From Sedimentisphaerales bacterium (GTDB taxonomy: Bacteria; Planctomycetota; Phycisphaerae; Sedimentisphaerales; Anaerohalosphaeraceae), in NCBI GenBank assembly GCA_016926155.1, contig JAFGPC010000155.1, forward strand, positions 1 to 55,170: a stretch of DNA of 55,170 nt, given 5' to 3'. Shown here in pieces: positions 13,942 to 24,719 of the stretch. The notes under the pieces were generated by a model. It searched no databases, was not told where the DNA came from, and worked only from the letters and a program-made list of their open reading frames with translations. Position 1 is the first letter of the stretch; each line of letters opens with the position of its first letter. Position numbers and translations under genes: made by a program.

Positions 13942-16900
13942 ATGAAGAAATTACTGATCTTACTTTTAGTCACATGTTTGGGATTGCTCTCGGTCCCTCT
14001 CCATGCTGAGAAAATCCGCGTGGAAGTATGGGATAACGATGACGGCACGGCGAAGGACAGTTGGAGTGTAGCTGACCGGCTCAACTACTATGTTAACCTG
14101 TCGGTTGATCCGGCGCTGACCTTTTACCAGAGCAATTTCAGCGTAGGATCGTATTCAGGTACGGATAACTATACCTTGCGCCAGACAGCGTATATCAATA
14201 TCACCCAGGCCGGGGATTACTTCTTCGAAACCGGCTCGGATGACGGCAGCAACCTATGGATCGGCAACTGGTGGGACTATCTCAGCACCGGTATCGATCC
14301 GATGGTGTGGTATAGCACATTTGCCGACGACGTCGTGAACTTCCCATTGACCGAGGTCGTCATGAACGATTACTACCAGGGCGTTACCTGGCGGGGTGGT
14401 ACAATTTACCTTGAACCGGGTGTCTATGGGATCATGGTCAGCTTTTATGAAGGCGGAGGCGGTGATAGTGTCGAAGTCCGATATACCAAGCCGGGCGCCG
14501 GTAATGCGGTCTCGCTTGAAAACGATCTGATGGATTTGGAAGTGTGGTGGCCTGAACCGGTACAGCCGACAATAAATCTCGTTGACTACGAGATCTGGTA
14601 TCAGGTCAACACGGAGAACGGCGACACGTCCGGCTTCAACAGTACGGCTTATACTTCCTTGGGTTATGACAACACCGGCTTCCCGCCACTGGATATTGTG
14701 CTGTCGATCGAAGGCGATCCGGATGCGACCGGAAGTGTCGACGGGTTTACACTTGATGGCGTCGCGCTGCCCGATCCGGCAGAGTATTTTGTCACCCGTC
14801 ATCGAGGTATATTCAAGCTCGATGAGGCGATGAGTCTCGGCCTGGGGACAGACTCGGATGATGGGAGTCTGCTGTTTGTAGGCCCCTGGTGGGAAGAAAA
14901 TCCTGAAATGGTGCTTGTGGCTGACAATGACGGCTTACATGGTAATAGCCATTGGCGTGGTGGTTTTCTTGAGGATGTTGAAGCGGGATATATCGGAATC
15001 GAAACCTGGATGTATGAACATGCCGGTGGTGAATATCTGGCTGCAGCCTATTGGACTACGGGAGTACCCCGTACGTTATTGAACAACGATTCGTTGGTTT
15101 CCCGCGCTTATGCCAGCGGTCCCAGTCCGGCCAATGGCGCCCTGAGAGTCTCACCCGATGCTATCCTGTCCTGGACGGCGCCGGTCGGTACATCTGATCC
15201 GGAAATGTTCGTCTACTTTGGCGAGTATGGCGCCACGATGACTCAAGTCGCGCCGGACACCGAGACCAGTTACGATCCGGATCTAAAGTCCGGCGCTGTG
15301 TATCACTGGCGGATCGATGTTCTTGACCCGAATGAGAATCCATGGGGTAATGTTCCTACGCTGTTAACGGGTTCAACCTGGACATTTGCAACAGCCGGCT
15401 CGGACATTACGATCTTGCAATCACCGGCGGCAATCATTGCCGTCGACTACATGGCTGACGTAACCCTGAGCGTGGAGGTGACAAGCGCTTTACCGCTGAG
15501 TTATCAGTGGAAGAAGGGCGGTGAAAACATCACTGGCGCCACCGAAGCTTCGTATGTGATTCCCACGATGGAGAAAGATGAAAACGGTATCTATAGCTGT
15601 ATGGTCACCAATGACGACGACAGTGTGGAAACCCCCGGATCGCGTGTTTTTGTCAAGGAGCTCATGGCATACTGGCCGCTCGATAGTGATCTGCAGGATT
15701 GGGCTGAAATCGTAACAGCACCCGAACTGGCGCTGGCTGTCGGGGACAAGGATGCGATATACATGGTCAATGATCCTAACTTATTTGATGATAATGTGCC
15801 GGACATGACCGTGCCTTTCATTACAGGCAAGGTGGGTAACGCTGTTGATTTCAACGGTCAGACGAATTTCGCCTATGCCGGCACATGGAATCCCACAGCC
15901 GATTCAGGCCAGATGACAGTTGAGTTCTGGGCTAAATGGAAAGGCAGTGCGGGCCACTGGGAAGGCCCGATCGGCAAGCGTGATTCGTGGGATCCTGTGA
16001 ATATGATGTGGCAGATCGAGCTGGATGAAGACAATGACGATGTCCTCAAGACGCTGCAATCCAATGGCGGTGGCGGTGGGGCCCAAACAGTCCGCCTTCC
16101 CGAAGCGGGCACATACAACGTAGCTGCCGGCGCCTATATCAGCTATAGCGCTCAGCACACATCGAATGTTGATGAGGAAGCCTTCCGTGGATTCGATGGA
16201 CAGAAGGACACCAAATGGCTGGCTTTCTTCAACACTGCTTGGCTCCAGGTAACGTTCCCCGATAAGAAGACTTATGTAGTTACTTCTTATGCGATTACTT
16301 CCGGTAACGATGCCGACGGACGCGATCCGGACAACTGGACACTACAGGGCTCCAATGATGGCACGAACTGGGATATTCTGGATACCAAGACCAGCTCAGC
16401 CGGTAGTTGGACGGCTCGAAATCAGACCGTCGCATTTGATCTGAGTAGCAACACAACAGCTTATAGAATGTACAAGCTGGACATTACCAAGGCCCGTGAT
16501 CCCAGTCTTAATATCCTCCAGCTTTCTGAGGTGGAATTGTTTGCCGCCGCTCCGATCGCAGACGATGGCTGGGTATTCGTCACCACGACCTACGATGGTA
16601 CAACGGCTACGACGTATGTTAATGGTCACCCTGTCCGCAGTGCGGCTATGACTTTTGCCGGCGATACCGAATCCAGTGTAGTATTTGGAGGCTGTGAAGC
16701 TAATCCGACTGGTGGCTCAGACGTGAGCAGCAAACCGTGGGGCGGCAACCTGTTCAATGGGGCCCTGGATGAAGTAAAGATCTACAACTATGCTCTGAGC
16801 GAAGTGGAAGTGCTGCAAAATTACTATACCATGGCTGACGGCGATCCGGTCTGTTTCCCGGGCACGGAGCCGGCCCTGGACCAGGATGGAAACTGCGTGG

Positions 16901-16962
16901 TAGATATGGCGGACCTGCTTTCTCTTGTAAGCCAGTGGATGCAGAATAACTTCGTCGATTAG
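13942..16962 (+). CDS. Giant secreted double-PA14 protein with discoidin nested in LamG
   Basis: A 1006-aa protein with signal peptide (1-22). It has two PA14-like domains (about 25-195 with SDDGSNLWIGNWW, and 215-390 with DSDDGSLLFVGPWW), FN3-like (393-485), Ig-like (487-572, GIYSCMVTNDD) and a LamG domain starting at 575 (YWPLDSDLQDW). The LamG is interrupted at about 707-869 by a complete F5/8 type C (discoidin) domain (KWLAFFNTAWLQVTF, WTLQGSNDGTNW, LQLSEVEL) and resumes at 871 (GWVFVTTTYDGTTATTYVNG) to 960. The tail is dockerin-like (DQDGNCVVDMADLLSLVSQW). Glycan binding is inferred. CGGAGGA precedes the ATG. Confidence 0.88.
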   Translation: MKKLLILLLVTCLGLLSVPLHAEKIRVEVWDNDDGTAKDSWSVADRLNYYVNLSVDPALTFYQSNFSVGSYSGTDNYTLRQTAYINITQAGDYFFETGSDDGSNLWIGNWWDYLSTGIDPMVWYSTFADDVVNFPLTEVVMNDYYQGVTWRGGTIYLEPGVYGIMVSFYEGGGGDSVEVRYTKPGAGNAVSLENDLMDLEVWWPEPVQPTINLVDYEIWYQVNTENGDTSGFNSTAYTSLGYDNTGFPPLDIVLSIEGDPDATGSVDGFTLDGVALPDPAEYFVTRHRGIFKLDEAMSLGLGTDSDDGSLLFVGPWWEENPEMVLVADNDGLHGNSHWRGGFLEDVEAGYIGIETWMYEHAGGEYLAAAYWTTGVPRTLLNNDSLVSRAYASGPSPANGALRVSPDAILSWTAPVGTSDPEMFVYFGEYGATMTQVAPDTETSYDPDLKSGAVYHWRIDVLDPNENPWGNVPTLLTGSTWTFATAGSDITILQSPAAIIAVDYMADVTLSVEVTSALPLSYQWKKGGENITGATEASYVIPTMEKDENGIYSCMVTNDDDSVETPGSRVFVKELMAYWPLDSDLQDWAEIVTAPELALAVGDKDAIYMVNDPNLFDDNVPDMTVPFITGKVGNAVDFNGQTNFAYAGTWNPTADSGQMTVEFWAKWKGSAGHWEGPIGKRDSWDPVNMMWQIELDEDNDDVLKTLQSNGGGGGAQTVRLPEAGTYNVAAGAYISYSAQHTSNVDEEAFRGFDGQKDTKWLAFFNTAWLQVTFPDKKTYVVTSYAITSGNDADGRDPDNWTLQGSNDGTNWDILDTKTSSAGSWTARNQTVAFDLSSNTTAYRMYKLDITKARDPSLNILQLSEVELFAAAPIADDGWVFVTTTYDGTTATTYVNGHPVRSAAMTFAGDTESSVVFGGCEANPTGGSDVSSKPWGGNLFNGALDEVKIYNYALSEVEVLQNYYTMADGDPVCFPGTEPALDQDGNCVVDMADLLSLVSQWMQNNFVD

Positions 16963-17170: not shown

Positions 17171-19519
17171 TTATTTTCCCACCCCATCAGCCATAATTGT
17201 CTGGTATGGAAGCCAACTATTGAGTACGTATTCACAGTTCAACACTTTCTCAACCAGATCCAACGGCACATAATAGTACTGGTTCGATGCCTCAAAACCA
17301 ATTCGGGGATCATTTCGTGTCAAGGTGAACAGGCGTTTGGCATTCTGTATCTCATCTGTCACGATGGTCTTGATTTCTGTCAGTCGGTTTTCTCGCTTTG
17401 CCTGATTAAGGGAATCTGACAGAAGTGCGTTCCTGGCCAATGTGAAACGGACCAGGTTGGCCACACTCTTGCAGTGAAGATAAACAGCCTCCGCCACTCC
17501 AAAATCTTCCCAGGCATGGGTACGCAACTCCTGGTCGGTTATCCTGGGTAGAACTTTTTCAAAACTGAAAAGGCCTTGACGCCATTCTTGGGCCATTGTC
17601 TCAAACTGTCGGGCTAAGACATCCGCCGGGTAAATTCCTTGCCAGCCCTCGAGGTCATCATAGGGGAATCCGATCATGGTGGCCCGATAGCCTGTAGGTT
17701 TGGTATAGAGTAGATTCGCAGGCCCATACTGTGCAGGACCTGAATAGACAAAGCCAATATGAAATGGATATTCTGTAAATGCACTGCTGAATTGGGACCA
17801 GGCATCTAAAACAACCTCAGTGGCTTCTTGCCCATACCGAGATTTAGCCACATTTGTCAGCGCCTCTTTGACTGTCGGTATCGGTGCTGATTGGAATTGT
17901 TGGACAAGATCCAGGTTCGGTGACGGATAGCCGCCCACCGTCCAGCTCAACATAAGGCCGTCGATGCCGGCGTTTGACAGGTTGCTGCAGTGTTGTGCAA
18001 TAAGATGCATAGACGGGATAAAAGGCACGGCAGACAGTTCCCAGGAACTGTTGACCTGTACCTTGGCAATTGTCTTAAGCCCGCGTTTTTTGGCCAAAGC
18101 CCAATGCCTTTGGGCGCGAGGCCCCGGTCCTACGGAGGAAATCGAATATTCCCCTACGGCACTGGATATCCCACCGCGTATGATCGGTTTTCCCCACTCG
18201 CTGACACTCATCAGATAGATATTGTCAGGTAATGCCTCAATAATCTTTTCCGCCCAATCCGGCCGGCCCCAACCGGCAGCGGTACCATCGGGCCAGCCCC
18301 AGTCCCAGACAATAACCACCGCATCGGGATTTCCTTCCCAAACACCGGCAGCAATCGTGCGATTTACCTCCGCAATAACTTCCGGGCCGGATCGTTTGGA
18401 GCAACGCGGGCATCCCGTGGCATGACGGTTGTGACTGTAACAATTCGTCAGATTCTCCGAGGCCGTGATCGTAAAGACACCTCCCAGATCCGGCACGTGA
18501 CTGAATACATAACGGAGGGACTCTTTTAGCCATTGCCGTACCGATTCATTGGATGTACACAGGGAAAAGTGATCCCCTTCACGGAAGCCTTTTAGTTCCT
18601 CTCTGTCTTTGAAAAATAACTCCGGCATTGCTCGTGGTTCATTTATATAGAGATACACCTTGATTCCATACTTCCCGGCACGGTTGACTAACCGTCTGAG
18701 GTTGGCGGTTCGCACAGCCGAATCGACACCGAATTCCGGGAAAAGCGTGCTGGGGGCCAACTGGCGGAGAACCACATGTAGCCAGATTCCATTCACTCCT
18801 CGTTCCGATAGTGATTGAAGCAATGTATCTGGATACGGATCCAGCTCCGGATTAAGGAGTGGATCCCCGAAAACGCCAAAATAGGAATACAGGAATCGGA
18901 TCGGCTGTTCCGTATCTGGATTTCTCTTTGGCATATGTTGTATATCGATTGGTGATACATCCTCAAGAAAGTCAAATCGCGGCCTGGCAGGCTGGTCAAA
19001 TGGTTCCTTAAAATGGGATAATACAGTAGCCCGTATCTGGCCACACCGCTTCATTGTCGATTGATCTGGGGGCATGTACTGAAGTGTTTGACAAGACGGC
19101 TTCAGGGAACCAAGTTTGATCCAAAGGAAATCGTCTTCCCGAAGAGTGAAAGCAAGTTTCTGAGCATCCCAATCCAACAGCGTTAACAGTTGGTTATAGG
19201 GTAAAAGGTGCCAATTGCGGCGAATAATGGATATATAAGCACGCTGCTCGTACGTATCCGGATATACCATAGCAAGCGGCAGTCCCATCGACTGTCCCAT
19301 CCTTCGGATGTTGTCCGGAGTCGTATCCAACACCCTGGCCATCCGCTCGGCAGATACCAATTCCCAGTTCCTCCAGACAAACGCATGCAGACGATCAGGA
19401 AAATGCTCGAATTCAATTGCCGCTGGAGCACTGCCGGTTGGCAGAATTTCTGCGACAGAAACGACATTCAAAAGACAAGCCATTATTGTACATATGTAAA
19501 GTACAATCATTCTATTCAT
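17171..19519 (-). CDS. Secreted TIM-barrel-like protein, putative glycosidase
   Basis: A 782-aa protein with signal peptide (MIVLYICTIMACLLNVVSVA). The N-terminal 60-175 reads as two helical, HTH-like units (WELVSAERMARVLDTTPDNI and WHLLPYNQLLTLLDWDAQKL). From about 205 a (beta/alpha)8-like core follows: GVNGIWLHVVL, YGIKVYLYINEPRAM, GGVFTITASENLTNCYSHN with CPRC, VVIVWDWGWPDG and IDGLMLSWTVGG. Acidic residues at strand ends (NEPR, ASEN, WDWGWPDG) fit a retaining glycosidase of the GH20/GH84 style, but I cannot name a family. It is monocistronic, facing the giant-protein operon. Substrate unknown. Confidence 0.75.
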   Translation of the reverse strand: MNRMIVLYICTIMACLLNVVSVAEILPTGSAPAAIEFEHFPDRLHAFVWRNWELVSAERMARVLDTTPDNIRRMGQSMGLPLAMVYPDTYEQRAYISIIRRNWHLLPYNQLLTLLDWDAQKLAFTLREDDFLWIKLGSLKPSCQTLQYMPPDQSTMKRCGQIRATVLSHFKEPFDQPARPRFDFLEDVSPIDIQHMPKRNPDTEQPIRFLYSYFGVFGDPLLNPELDPYPDTLLQSLSERGVNGIWLHVVLRQLAPSTLFPEFGVDSAVRTANLRRLVNRAGKYGIKVYLYINEPRAMPELFFKDREELKGFREGDHFSLCTSNESVRQWLKESLRYVFSHVPDLGGVFTITASENLTNCYSHNRHATGCPRCSKRSGPEVIAEVNRTIAAGVWEGNPDAVVIVWDWGWPDGTAAGWGRPDWAEKIIEALPDNIYLMSVSEWGKPIIRGGISSAVGEYSISSVGPGPRAQRHWALAKKRGLKTIAKVQVNSSWELSAVPFIPSMHLIAQHCSNLSNAGIDGLMLSWTVGGYPSPNLDLVQQFQSAPIPTVKEALTNVAKSRYGQEATEVVLDAWSQFSSAFTEYPFHIGFVYSGPAQYGPANLLYTKPTGYRATMIGFPYDDLEGWQGIYPADVLARQFETMAQEWRQGLFSFEKVLPRITDQELRTHAWEDFGVAEAVYLHCKSVANLVRFTLARNALLSDSLNQAKRENRLTEIKTIVTDEIQNAKRLFTLTRNDPRIGFEASNQYYYVPLDLVEKVLNCEYVLNSWLPYQTIMADGVGK

Positions 19520-19783
19520 ATTCTGTTTTCCATTCCGTCAGCAGTTCTGATTGATCTGTTGTTTTCCATATCTCCTTATGATCTCAAGTATTGGCATAAA
19601 ACGCAATCATAGTGTAAACGGGCGGAAATCCGGATTTTTCTATTCATTCGGCCTTTTTATGCTTTATATCAATCCATTATATACACAACTGGTGTTCTTC
19701 ACAATCTCCACTTGGCAAAGCTTCCTTCCTCGGGTAAAATATAATCAGGGTTGGAGTTCGTCTATATTGGAAAGGAGATAGAA

Positions 19784-21385
19784 ATGGGTAAATTACAAAG
19801 GGCACATACTCGTCTTCTTCGAAAACAAGCTAAGAAAACAACTCGAAAAAAGGTTCGTCGAATTGCCTTACATGCTGGAACAGCTGCTTTTTTTACTCTT
19901 TCCGGGAATACCTTACTGCATCAGAAGGTCTTTGCCGACGAAATACCGGATCCACATTTTTTGGAAATAACGGCAGATATCGATGCCGATGGTCTAGCGG
20001 ATTGGGAAGAACGAGTGCTGGGTTATGATCCCGCTGATGCGGATGAAAATCAAACTGAGATAGAAGATGGAATCGAGTTGGCAAGATGTTGTGCAGAGAC
20101 AATTCATTCCCTTCCTGTACAACAGCCCGGAGATCCAATACCCGAGGGTATTTATCGTACGGAGATATTGACATACGGATTAGAACAGTGTCATATCTGC
20201 GGTGAGTCGTTCAACATGGGGGAGATAGTGATTCACAATCCTGACCTGTCCGAAGAAAAATGGATCTGCTTTCTTGGTCTGCATTACCTCGAGCACGGTT
20301 CTTTCAGCTACTCGGGAACCGTTCATGAAGGACGAATCAATGTCCCGGCATTGGCTCGTATTTTACAAATCGAAGTGCCCAATCACGGTGATCACCAGGT
20401 GCCTGTATCGGGTGACAGCGATAACGATCAGATGACGGATCATGAAGAGTACGGACTGGGGTATCATCCTTTCGATGGGGATCAGAACGACAACCTCGTA
20501 ATTGACGGTGCCGATCTGGGGAAACGTATTGTCGCGCGAGTCGAGGAAGTAATTGCTTCCGATCCCACACCGGGATATGAGATATTCCGACACGAACTGG
20601 ATGGACTGGAGCAATGCCATATCTGCGGTCGGTATATTCACATGGGCGGAACAACCATTGCCAATACGCGGCTGGATTTGAAATATCCACAAGATGAATC
20701 GGGATTCTTACCCGATCTGGCCCTCCACAGCATGTCACACGGATCGTTCGATTACTTTGGAACCGAGCATATGGGGCGTGTCAACCTGAATTTGCTGATG
20801 AGGGTACTGGAGCTGCAGCTTCCGCATGTCCCGGACGAGCATGAACTGCCTCTCAAAGATACAGATACCGACCAGGACCAGATCAGTGATAGCGAAGAAA
20901 TAAACGCACAATTCAATGTACAGGATCCCGACCAGAATGAAAATCTAATCCCCGATGGCGTGGATCTGGCCAAACAATGCAAGCGGATTCTTGATGCCTT
21001 GCCCGTATATGAAACACCGCAGACACAGATGGATAGACCCTACAAGATCAACCGCTTTATGAGAGGATTGGAACAATGCCATGTTTGCGGAGAAAATGTC
21101 AATATGGGTTATTGGGAAGTGCATAATCCCAAGTTGGACCAGTCCATGGAAGTGCCGGAAATCGCCTGTCATTATTTGGAGCATGGAACGTTTGAATATA
21201 ACGGCGACGTTCATGGTCGCGGACGGGTAGATGTCAACAAACTGCTCACTCTTCTTGAAATGCCGGTAGATTGCGGCGATCTGGGGACAATATATCATCC
21301 GGCCGATCTGAATAGAGACTGTGAAGTAAATTTGAAGGATGCGGCGGAAATGGCCCAGCAATGGCTTCTTAAGACTCTCCCATAG
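19784..21385 (+). CDS. Secreted protein with three Ca-loop plus CxxC/His repeat modules
   Basis: A 533-aa protein. The start at 19784 is set by AAGGAG 6 nt upstream; a TATAAT at 19740-19745 lies just before it. A long basic n-region precedes a signal peptide (about 28-52). Three modules of about 135 aa follow (65-197, 210-345, 359-493). Each has two acidic Ca-type loops (for example DIDADGLADWEE, then DGDQNDNLVIDGADL) and then a conserved unit GLEQCH-I/V-CG, MG, H-x3-HG-S/T-F, Y-x-G-x2-H, GR-I/V-N/D. Two Cys and three to four His per module suggest a metal site or redox Cys pair. A dockerin-like tag (DLNRDCEVNLKDAAEMAQQW) ends the protein. I know no named family for this module. The next gene starts 3 nt later. 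Confidence 0.88.
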   Translation: MGKLQRAHTRLLRKQAKKTTRKKVRRIALHAGTAAFFTLSGNTLLHQKVFADEIPDPHFLEITADIDADGLADWEERVLGYDPADADENQTEIEDGIELARCCAETIHSLPVQQPGDPIPEGIYRTEILTYGLEQCHICGESFNMGEIVIHNPDLSEEKWICFLGLHYLEHGSFSYSGTVHEGRINVPALARILQIEVPNHGDHQVPVSGDSDNDQMTDHEEYGLGYHPFDGDQNDNLVIDGADLGKRIVARVEEVIASDPTPGYEIFRHELDGLEQCHICGRYIHMGGTTIANTRLDLKYPQDESGFLPDLALHSMSHGSFDYFGTEHMGRVNLNLLMRVLELQLPHVPDEHELPLKDTDTDQDQISDSEEINAQFNVQDPDQNENLIPDGVDLAKQCKRILDALPVYETPQTQMDRPYKINRFMRGLEQCHVCGENVNMGYWEVHNPKLDQSMEVPEIACHYLEHGTFEYNGDVHGRGRVDVNKLLTLLEMPVDCGDLGTIYHPADLNRDCEVNLKDAAEMAQQWLLKTLP

Positions 21386-21388
21386 GCT

Positions 21389-21934
21389 ATGCAGATGGAG
21401 ATCCCGCCTTTGAATCCTGAAAACAAGATGTGCATATATCATGGACTTAATATCCCAAGGTATTGTTTAAAAGCGTTGAAGGAGATCGACCAACAGTTAG
21501 CATATTTGGCTCTTTTGACACTCGTGGGAATCAAACCAATGAGCCGATGGGAAAAGTCGTTGGGTTCCGAGCCAATCAAATTATTACAGCAACTCGGACT
21601 CTATGTGGTTCAGGTACATCGAACAGCCTTAAACGGGACGGAAGTCAAAGAAACCCTTTTTAGCACAACAAAAGCATATATTGAAATTTACAAAAACCGC
21701 TGGGAGGGGCAACTGTTGGACAAATCGCCGCAAACGGTTCGGTTTGAAGGTTTTCTCTTCGGTTATCCCCCCTGCTGTGTGGAAGCCTATATCGAGAATC
21801 CATACACCCCGAATGACATCGATCCGGTTCAGCAGGAAGCCTTGTTTCATTGGGCATGCAAAGGCTGCACAATTACCCCTCTCTTGCTTCCATTATATCA
21901 AAAACTCAATTCAATTCTTGTGGACTGCGATTAG
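21389..21934 (+). CDS. Cys-rich DUF483-like protein partnered with the repeat protein
   Basis: A 181-aa cytoplasmic-type protein without a signal peptide. The C-terminal half has FEGFLFGYPPCCVEAYIENP (about 119-138) and then FHWACKGC, giving a Cys-Cys pair plus His-x2-Cys-x2-Cys, which is plausible metal ligation. The GYPxCCVEAY phrase recalls DUF483, a family I remember from archaea; that assignment is from memory and tentative. The start lies only 3 nt after the stop of the repeat protein, with no clear Shine-Dalgarno, so translation is probably coupled. The two products are likely to act together. Confidence 0.7.
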   Translation: MQMEIPPLNPENKMCIYHGLNIPRYCLKALKEIDQQLAYLALLTLVGIKPMSRWEKSLGSEPIKLLQQLGLYVVQVHRTALNGTEVKETLFSTTKAYIEIYKNRWEGQLLDKSPQTVRFEGFLFGYPPCCVEAYIENPYTPNDIDPVQQEALFHWACKGCTITPLLLPLYQKLNSILVDCD

Positions 21935-21976
21935 GTATAGTTCTTGTCGTTTATAAGCATGAGAAAGGATATTCTT

Positions 21977-23119
21977 ATGAGGATTCATATTGTATATATA
22001 GCTGTCTGGGTGCTGATGATATCGATTTTAATCCAGCCCATTTCATGGTCGGCAAATGATAATTGGATGAACTTGCCTTTCATCAAGAAGGATATCGAAA
22101 CGGGATTCAGTAACGGTGGATGGGAAGCTGACCGATACAGGAACATGGAGACACTGGGAGCACATAAAAGCATCGTTATTGCCGATTTGAAAGGCCCCGG
22201 GATAATCCGACATATTCACACGACACGGCATTATCAGCGGCCAATCTCAACTCGTGGAGTTGTGCTCTTGATCACTTTTGACGGCGCCGAGGAACCAGCA
22301 GTGCAGTGCCCGTTGGGAGATTTCTTTGGTGACGGCTGTAATGGTAAAAGCATGCATTTCAGTACACCCCTGATCGAATGCGCCCCAGGCAGCTATAACA
22401 CCTATATTCCCATGCCTTTCAGGATAAGCGCCAAAGTAATCTTGCGTAATGACACAGATATCAAACTGGACAATTACAGTTATGTGGAATGGGAACCTCT
22501 GACGGAATGGAATCCTGAACTGGGTTATTTTCACGCGACATATCAACGTCGGATTTTTCAACTGGCCGACGACACGCACGAGACGTTCTTCCATACCAAA
22601 GGAAGCGGACACCTTGTAGGCAGACAGTTTACAGTGGCAACCGATGAACCTCTTTTTAAGAACTTTCATTTTGTGATGGAAGGCAATAATGAGGTGGATA
22701 TAGATGGTTATGAACGAAGGCTGGATTATTTGGGATCGGAGGACTCATTTACTTTCAGTTGGGGATTTCAGTGTACTTTTGCGGGATGCCATGCAGGTAT
22801 GCCCCTGGTCAGAACGGGCGATCTGAACCTACTGTCAATCTATCGTTTTCACGACCATATGCCCATTCGATTTACGAAGGAACTGAAATGGTCGATCAAC
22901 TGGAAGTATGAATTCTGGAAGACTCCCCAGTGGCTGACTCCCATTCGACAGCGCAAACAGGAAGATGGCTGCTGGGTGGATTATGCAAGCGTTTTCTACT
23001 GGTACCAGGACACTCCGGCCGGTTTTAAGCATCGGCCGATTGAATCCCTCGATCAGCGTATCAAGGATCTTCTCAAGTCATCCAAAACAAAGACCGAGAC
23101 GGAAGTTTCGAGTCGATAA
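21977..23119 (+). CDS. Secreted DUF2961 (GH172-type) glycoside hydrolase
   Basis: A 380-aa protein. The ATG at 21977 is chosen because AAGGA lies 8 nt before it and a signal peptide follows directly (IHIVYIAVWVLMISILIQPI); upstream ATG (21959) and TTG (21944) starts lack a site. DUF2961 hallmarks are LKGPGIIRHIHTT (71-83), CPLGDFFGDG (111-120), GSYNTYIPMPF (138-148) and the two candidate catalytic Glu in VMEGNNE (Glu235) and LGSEDSF (Glu255). Characterised GH172 enzymes act on fructofuranosyl or D-arabinofuranosyl linkages. It converges with a second family member at 23139-24719. Confidence 0.88.
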   Translation: MRIHIVYIAVWVLMISILIQPISWSANDNWMNLPFIKKDIETGFSNGGWEADRYRNMETLGAHKSIVIADLKGPGIIRHIHTTRHYQRPISTRGVVLLITFDGAEEPAVQCPLGDFFGDGCNGKSMHFSTPLIECAPGSYNTYIPMPFRISAKVILRNDTDIKLDNYSYVEWEPLTEWNPELGYFHATYQRRIFQLADDTHETFFHTKGSGHLVGRQFTVATDEPLFKNFHFVMEGNNEVDIDGYERRLDYLGSEDSFTFSWGFQCTFAGCHAGMPLVRTGDLNLLSIYRFHDHMPIRFTKELKWSINWKYEFWKTPQWLTPIRQRKQEDGCWVDYASVFYWYQDTPAGFKHRPIESLDQRIKDLLKSSKTKTETEVSSR

Positions 23120-23138: not shown

Positions 23139-24719
23139 TCATGACAGGGTTTTTCTCTTACGATCCCAGCGTTTACGGAGGCGAACGGAATCCAGCCCGA
23201 GTCGATTGCCTCTCGAGAGAGGATTGCGGCCCATACACTCAAAACGTAACGTGTGCCTGCCCGGCGCGAGTTTGAAGCTTCCAAGATAATGATCTTTTAC
23301 CTCGAGGGTTTTGGTATAGAAATCATAATCCTCGATCTTCTCGCCTGCCATATAGTCTTCCGGCTGGCGGATATTCTTACCGTCGAGGAAAATCCTGTAA
23401 ATGCCATAGTCCTCGCCGTATGTCATTCGAAGCATCAGACCACGATACTCCTCTTTCTCGATGTTGAAATCGACTTCCAGAAGGGGGTGACCCGAAGCCG
23501 GCATAAAGGAAAGTTGCCCTTCTTTGGTCCAGTCGTAACCTTTCTGGAGTTCTAAAATCCCGGGTGAGTGTTTGGCCGTTGCAAGAAGGGTTTTCCCTTC
23601 GATGATCATGTCGAGATTCGGTACAAGACGCTGGGCGAGTGGCGGCAGTTCCGTGAACCGGTGAGGCGGACCGACTTGATACCAAAATGCGACGGTGGCA
23701 ATATCATCCTCACGCTCGACATGCCCTTCGGTTTTGCCGCTCTCGGTCTCATCCCCGGTGATCCAGCCGGTATGTTCAATCTCGAAACGCAACGATTTCG
23801 CAAAACGGACAGGATCGGCGATATGCCACCTGTACAGGCAGTACTCTGTACCTAAATCTTCGAAGTCCGAACTCATATACGTGCATCCGAAATAAGGGAA
23901 GGAGGTCGGATTGAGGCCCCAGGCCATGAGGAAGTAGTCTTCAGTGCCTGTGCCCTGGATGGAAGGCTTCGTATCGCCGTCGATATAAAAACGGGCGTCT
24001 CCTTCGCCAAACCAGTACGGACTACGCGAGCGTACGGACATCACGGTCCCCACGTAATGACCTTGTCCCCGGATGTCGGCGATGAGATAGTCCTGCCCCA
24101 GCTTCTCTGGGAATGCCTGATTATACTGGGCACAAAAGTAAGCCGTCTTCGGGGTGAGGGTTTCCTCTTGCGTGTAGTCGATGTGGTAATAGAAGCTCCG
24201 GACGTTTTTGTCACCCTCATTCGTAACGGTAATTAGACCACGCTTGAAAAACGGCATAGGCCAGTAACAGTTGTAACCGTCACCTCCTTCGACCTGGATG
24301 GGAACTGATTTCAACTCCAATCGGCGTCCGAATCCTGCACCAAAGAAATCGCCGATGGGGGCCTCGACGGCGGGCTTATTCCCGTCGTCCCAATACATGC
24401 GCAGGACGATCTCATTCGGTGCCGCCGAGCCTGTCGCCTCGAGCCAATTTGGACGTGCCTCGTTAAAAGTAAGCCAAATATGCCGGATGACAGCCGGGCC
24501 TTTGATATCTGCCAAAATCTTGGTTTCACCGGGCGTGACGTACTTAATTCGGTCAGCATTGCCGGAATAGCTTGAATCGGTTGAGGTAATTGCTCGTGCT
24601 CGCCCGGGTTGAACTCTCATCAGAGCATCCATATCCTGGGCAGATAGTGAAGAGATTATTATCTGTAGAAACAACCATATAAAACAAACAATCGTGTTTC
24701 GCATTCTCCTTTTAGTCAT
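23139..24719 (-). CDS. Secreted DUF2961 (GH172-type) glycoside hydrolase with extra C-terminal domain
   Basis: A 526-aa protein with signal peptide (about 8-27) and AAGGAGG 7 nt before the ATG. DUF2961 core: ILADIKGPAVIRHIW (68-82), APIGDFFGAGFG (120-131), GYNCYWPMPF (148-157), WFGEGDARFYIDGD with Glu239 and GTGTEDYF with Glu260. The 21-residue spacing of the two Glu agrees with the catalytic pair I recall for the characterised Bifidobacterium enzyme. Residues about 395-520 form an additional beta-rich domain (FRLAPGRHTLRFE-like), possibly carbohydrate binding. It is 38 nt downstream of the GH36-like gene, so the two are an operon. The substrate is probably a furanose-containing glycan. Confidence 0.9.
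   Translation of the reverse strand: MTKRRMRNTIVCFIWLFLQIIISSLSAQDMDALMRVQPGRARAITSTDSSYSGNADRIKYVTPGETKILADIKGPAVIRHIWLTFNEARPNWLEATGSAAPNEIVLRMYWDDGNKPAVEAPIGDFFGAGFGRRLELKSVPIQVEGGDGYNCYWPMPFFKRGLITVTNEGDKNVRSFYYHIDYTQEETLTPKTAYFCAQYNQAFPEKLGQDYLIADIRGQGHYVGTVMSVRSRSPYWFGEGDARFYIDGDTKPSIQGTGTEDYFLMAWGLNPTSFPYFGCTYMSSDFEDLGTEYCLYRWHIADPVRFAKSLRFEIEHTGWITGDETESGKTEGHVEREDDIATVAFWYQVGPPHRFTELPPLAQRLVPNLDMIIEGKTLLATAKHSPGILELQKGYDWTKEGQLSFMPASGHPLLEVDFNIEKEEYRGLMLRMTYGEDYGIYRIFLDGKNIRQPEDYMAGEKIEDYDFYTKTLEVKDHYLGSFKLAPGRHTLRFECMGRNPLSRGNRLGLDSVRLRKRWDRKRKTLS

Follow-up and report, generated by a model that had tools for sequence, protein, structure and literature searches.

An unnamed family of probably exported repeat modules with predicted calcium and zinc sites and a conserved partner gene in the bacterial order Sedimentisphaerales

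Introduction

Several described domains resemble parts of the locus that is reported here. In the zf-C2HC_2 family (PF13913), a short strand comes after a CxxCG zinc knuckle, and the third-ligand His lies about 12 residues past the knuckle and is followed by the fourth-ligand Cys. EF-hands and the bacterial TSP3 repeats (PF18884, EF-hand_1/6) carry two 12-residue loops of the D-x-D-x-D...E type, and type I dockerins (PF00404) and planctomycete tails end in a DxNxDxxVNxxDxxxxAxxWL loop. DUF483 (PF04467), which is itself of unknown function, contains a segment around FLFGYPxCC. One study (PMC11437467) describes DUF483 genes that adjoin radical SAM genes in phages of Thermus, as well as fusions of DUF483 with radical SAM or methyltransferase domains.

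The proteins encoded at our locus share each of these features but differ from every one of these families. The CxxCG knuckle and short strand are present, but the later His and Cys of the Pfam family are unconserved, and the module instead uses an HxxxH motif about 25-40 residues further on, after an inserted hairpin. The EF-type loops are joined to this zinc-type domain in a fixed repeat and score only weakly against Pfam. Most members have a single loop in the dockerin-like tail, together with a Cys pair, and no good dockerin match. The neighbouring gene product has the FLFGYPxCC segment of DUF483, but no radical SAM gene was found as its conserved neighbour. In what we consider the best explanation, an exported surface protein made of calcium- and zinc-binding repeats has a cytosolic partner of its own, which would act on its leader; judging from the sequences, we give this reading a probability of roughly 0.4.

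The module defines an unnamed domain family in which an EF-type pair is combined with a C2H2-like predicted zinc site with an inserted hairpin. Its copies stand in tandem in a protein that is probably extracellular, a setting in which zinc sites of this type are uncommon, and it is tied to a specific cytosolic partner and a specific leader. Should the partner indeed work on this leader, the two proteins would be an export or maturation pair of a new kind, and a family near DUF483 would gain a function.

The module gene and its family

The window, by which we mean the whole analysed stretch of 55,170 nucleotides, contains an open reading frame at 19784-21385 on the forward strand that starts with ATG, is preceded by a GGAGA ribosome site, and encodes 533 aa. 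In the protein, a basic leader precedes three repeats, each about 140 aa long, and a dockerin-like tail, and the next gene 3' encodes the putative partner. The features are as follows.

19712..19740, + strand: candidate sigma-70 promoter TTGGCA-17-TAAAAT, 5' of the two-gene unit; weak, as the number of such sites is not above that in shuffled sequence
19784..19936, + strand: family-specific basic leader/signal region MGKLQRAHTRLLRKQAKKTTRKKVRRIALHAGTAAFFTLSGNTLLHQKVFA, from leader HMM, alignment and pairwise identity; cleavage after VFA set by eye
19952..20374, + strand: module 1, EF-type loops DIDADGLADWEE and DENQTEIEDGIE plus CxxC/HxxxH core (core 20177-20368)
20390..20818, + strand: module 2, EF-type loops plus CxxC/HxxxH core (core 20603-20812)
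20837..21265, + strand: module 3, EF-type loops DTDQDQISDSEE and DQNENLIPDGVD plus CxxC/HxxxH core (core 21065-21259); modelled with AlphaFold2
21272..21382, + strand: C-terminal dockerin-like tail CGDLGTIYHPADLNRDCEVNLKDAAEMAQQWL, conserved across the family, with a single Ca-type loop and a pair of conserved Cys
21389..21934, + strand: partner gene, 181 aa, Cys-rich, predicted cytosolic, distantly resembling DUF483

The three modules are 38-40% identical to one another in the alignment, and the D/E residues of both loops, GLEQCH-CG, MG, HxxxHG, F, Y-x-G, H and GR are identical in all three. A preliminary description of the window had proposed a secreted, modular protein with three copies of one motif order; every motif that it named was found in all three modules, and the sequence agrees with export and modularity. 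An HMM of the core, built from nine modules, matched exactly three places in the 5.0 Mb window genome, namely the three modules (E 6e-31 to 4e-36), and thus the repeated pattern is not due to chance.

The same HMM was run on a 392-genome sample of the phylum and on 161 genomes of the order, where it recovered the related loci of a true family. Matches were found in 34 of the 161 genomes; because one of these (G047) is marginal, covering 22 residues only and at most a degenerate remnant, we count 33 genomes that carry the family. Almost all of them belong to family f7; the window genome belongs to f1, and f5 contributes a single genome. In the phylum sample, modules were found in the window genome only; a further match, in G124 (L024), sits beside a terminase-like gene and was rejected as a false positive. 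With 35 further stretches from relatives added (two entries, L016 and G458, are the same contig), 81 distinct modules could be compared, and complete module proteins in the related loci contain two to five modules each. No relatives of the module protein were found in viral contigs or plasmids, none of the module by sequence in the PDB, and no paper on the family was found in the literature. The proposal that the module belongs to no named domain holds in the sense that no model in Pfam, NCBIfam or PHROGs covers it whole. Taken at the level of sequence, the module is a real, unnamed and lineage-restricted family.

Predicted calcium loops and the Cys2His2 site

Each module begins with two 12-residue EF-type loops about 22 residues apart, with ligand spacing 1, 3, 5, 12 (e.g. 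DTDQDQISDSEE and DQNENLIPDGVD). The D-x-D-x-D...EE pattern of loop 1 and the DQ...DG pattern of loop 2 are near-invariant over 77-78 modules; in loop 2, positions 3 and 5 are often Asn, with Glu or Asp at position 12 in 70 modules and Gln there in 6. Profile scores are low: EF-hand_9 reaches 13.5 bits on the window protein against a cut-off of 37, PF18884 (TSP3_bac), PF13405 and PF00036 match some relatives weakly (E 0.012-0.027), and the model for the gliding lipoprotein CglD (NF033765) gives weak matches in 18 of the 29 members. The loop pair of each repeat would be expected to stiffen with calcium.

The core that follows carries the most strictly conserved residues. CxxC is kept in 80 of 80 modules, the first His of HxxxH in 81 of 81 and the second in 79 of 81, with Cys in the other two; the Gly after HxxxH, a Met and the Arg of GR are each present in all 81. 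The preliminary description had noted that a Cys pair, at least three His and the HG-S/T-F motif are invariant in the three modules of the window, and had taken this to point to a metal-binding or redox module. Over the larger set the Cys pair and HG were borne out, but 20 of the 81 modules lack the third His, which the other 61 have, and the residue inside 'CHxC' is His in only 10 of 80, so that the metal site reduces to Cys2His2. Since the His pair is conserved as strictly as the Cys pair, and His is replaced by Cys in the manner of a ligand swap, this set points to a zinc site and not to a redox site, and of the two earlier suggestions the invariant ligands favour metal binding. We infer zinc and calcium as the metals from established ligand patterns, and it is likely that calcium binding, zinc binding and export all apply to this protein.

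The CxxC could instead be a redox or disulfide site, with HxxxH serving another purpose. Free thiols are rarely kept in exported proteins, where a CxxC could oxidise, and both the ELAxxC Cys, present in 63 of 78 modules, and the Cys pair of the tail could form disulfides. However, such a reading does not account for a His pair as invariant as the Cys pair, nor for the His-to-Cys change in two modules, which is a typical zinc-ligand swap, although both cases come from one genus and probably represent a single event. The model described below shows a knuckle-plus-helix arrangement and no thioredoxin-type match was obtained, and we regard this alternative as improbable.

AlphaFold2 was applied to module 3 with a shallow alignment of 7 rows that excluded the loci from whole-genome searches. 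The model has a pLDDT of 78 overall, 81-92 in the core and 50-61 in the first 40 residues, which comprise the EF loops. The CxxC (C81, C84) forms a knuckle between strands 78-80 and 87-89, followed by an inserted hairpin (92-107) and a helix (108-115) that bears H112, with H116 just past it. At the level of predicted secondary structure, the Cys and His residues that were proposed to cluster thus follow a C2H2-like order, with HxxxH at the helix after the knuckle, and the invariant two Cys and two His together with knuckle and helix fit the C2H2-type site as a broad structural class. A Foldseek search of the PDB with the module gave nothing significant (best Z 2.6 after re-alignment). In the sequence search of the PDB, its knuckle resembled that of the LysW zinc ribbon (5k2m) at chance level. 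Among viral models, Bodo saltans virus A0A2H4UUD9 was matched with probability 0.98, but with E 0.016 and TM 0.38. VIA-align and Foldseek thus returned no meaningful match, which does not by itself make the fold novel.

On the strength of a Pfam match overlooked earlier, the protein might be taken for a plain zf-C2HC_2 zinc finger whose export is incidental: PF13913 scores 38.3 bits on the window protein, above its cut-off of 27. This match spans only 20 residues of the knuckle, so that the module as a whole remains without a named domain; it occurs in 8 of the 29 family members, and it stops at profile position 21 of 25, short of the fourth ligand. The CxxC knuckle of PF13913 is present, but the column of its third-ligand His holds His in 3 of 81 modules, and its later ligands are not conserved. 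We consider this explanation very improbable.

In the reading that we favour, CxxC and HxxxH would together bind a single structural zinc ion within a small C2H2-like domain, so that the gene product, exported and probably held at the surface, may be a spacer or a platform for binding that is locked by its metals, and not an enzyme. Alternatively, as each of its two to five modules has predicted sites for one zinc and two calcium ions, the protein might be a surface sponge or store for these metals. About one zinc site in 140 residues is little for such a role, and the conserved non-ligand M, N, G, S and R residues fit a structural site better; a storage function seems distinctly improbable to us.

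The partner gene

Two features of the locus had escaped the preliminary description, a gene that almost always neighbours the module gene and a leader specific to the family. The partner gene starts three bases past the stop codon of the module gene, and its product has no evident signal sequence. A homologue lies directly downstream in 32 of the 33 loci with sequence 3' of a module gene or fragment (L083, L088 and L089, cut by contig ends, were left out). The exception is the second module gene of G467 (L075), which is followed by a truncated leader copy instead. Among the 161 genomes of the order, 33 have modules, 35 have the partner and 32 have both; in the one genome with modules only (G522), the contig ends right after the module gene. 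Two genomes (G443 and G475) have an open partner gene between the same kinds of flanking genes and no module gene was found in them. The module gene is therefore practically never without the partner, which can itself stay alone, a pattern that would fit a partner in the service of the module protein; the partner may also have a second role or may outlive its client. The two genes are a conserved two-gene unit, outside which the other genes of the window lie, and no conserved third gene, radical SAM genes included, was found beside it among the loci. In G488 (L122:6995-7283), the third genome in which the partner was matched but no module, a degenerate leader almost abuts the remnant of a partner C-terminus, and both genes seem to have been lost through one internal deletion.

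The partner alignment shows invariant KPxSRWE, GYPxCC (Y or F) and HWxCxxC motifs. Membership in DUF483 was considered and rejected, because the score of 16.5 bits is below the Pfam cut-off of 25 and the match covers about 30 of 122 positions rather than the domain, with 4 of 16 members matching; a search of 59 related genomes for DUF483 itself gave no match. No relative of the partner was found by sequence in the PDB, or in viral contigs, phages and plasmids. Outside the order there is one relative, in G246 at a contig end, and in the partner tree the window sequence lies outside the f7 group next to this distant homologue, a tentative placement given the long G246 branch. An AlphaFold2 model from an alignment of 2 rows, again without the loci from whole-genome searches, has a pLDDT of 64, with the Cys region below 50 and a helix-helix-strand-helix-strand-strand region at 74-88. 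Its best structural neighbour is 2guk (Z 7.5), and the N-terminal part is predicted to be winged-helix-like.

The leader and the possible role of the partner

When 8-10 genomes were scanned with an HMM of the 44-residue leader, every match was to a module protein, apart from one truncated copy next to such a protein. Ordinary signal peptides diverge much faster than the mature parts of their proteins, and here the mean pairwise identity of the leader is 0.47 against 0.51-0.58 in the mature parts. A leader so specific to one family suggests a dedicated reader, for which the partner is the obvious candidate. A Tat substrate was considered and rejected, since the twin Arg before the hydrophobic stretch is absent in L061 (KNKFKQKAIVAG) and L070 (GSFKHKALTAG). 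At L075:8835-9041, 3' of the second G467 module gene, a truncated copy of the family leader stands before a LamG-like gene, apparently broken by a frameshift.

We conjecture, tentatively and from these sequence patterns, that the partner is a leader-reading or zinc-loading helper. It would most likely recognise the family-specific leader, or the unfolded modules, and make the module protein ready for export, for instance by zinc loading or by protection of the zinc site. The more specific form of this idea is dedicated metalloprotein export, in which a cytosolic, winged-helix, Cys-rich escort reads the leader, loads or protects the zinc sites and passes the protein to the export machinery; in this full form we consider it rather unlikely.

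The main rival explanation, which we also hold to be fairly unlikely, casts the partner as an autoregulator. It would bind DNA as a winged-helix protein, sense metal or redox state with its Cys cluster and control the operon, and no helper of its own would then be required for the exported protein. Its secondary structure is winged-helix-like, with loose structural similarity to the winged helices of CtsR and TFE/TFIIE, its Cys cluster is of a metal type, and its retention without a client in G443 and G475 would suit such a role. Nevertheless, the would-be recognition helix is variable, yet KPxSRWE, GYPxCC and HWxCxxC are invariant, no common palindrome was seen by eye in the upstream alignments, and the conserved family-specific leader would be left unexplained. 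A dedicated partner acting on the leader is the reading that we prefer.

The tail and the gene context

The preliminary description had taken the tail as dockerin-like and as a hint that the protein joins the same surface system as the giant LamG proteins. The tail is real as a sequence feature, but it has a single loop and lies below every Pfam dockerin cut-off; PF00404 does not match the window protein and matches 4 of the 29 members with E no better than 0.065. Similar tails occur at about 27 other places in the window genome, many of them weak matches, and the tail is thus a general feature of exported proteins in this genome. In several loci, large secreted LamG or beta-helix proteins are encoded close to the module gene, as they are in the window (13942-16962). 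A shared surface system is no more than a plausible inference that rests on this widely shared tail.

Some further observations were made around the unit. The module proteins of L022 (9424-11055) and L060 have an extra Cys-rich domain (NCC ... PCxCxC) past the tail, common to G048 and G470. In the window, a probably secreted protein of 782 aa (17171-19519, - strand) has a sub-threshold match to the GH67 middle domain and is perhaps an unassigned glycoside hydrolase, and two convergent genes for DUF2961 proteins (21944-23119, + strand, and 23139-24719, - strand) lie directly 3' of the two-gene unit. Finally, a stretch of 12 bases about 200 nt upstream of the module gene, TGTCCAATAAAA, is identical in five genomes of genus g296 (L081, L084, L077, L080 and L074), among which the sequence around it diverges.
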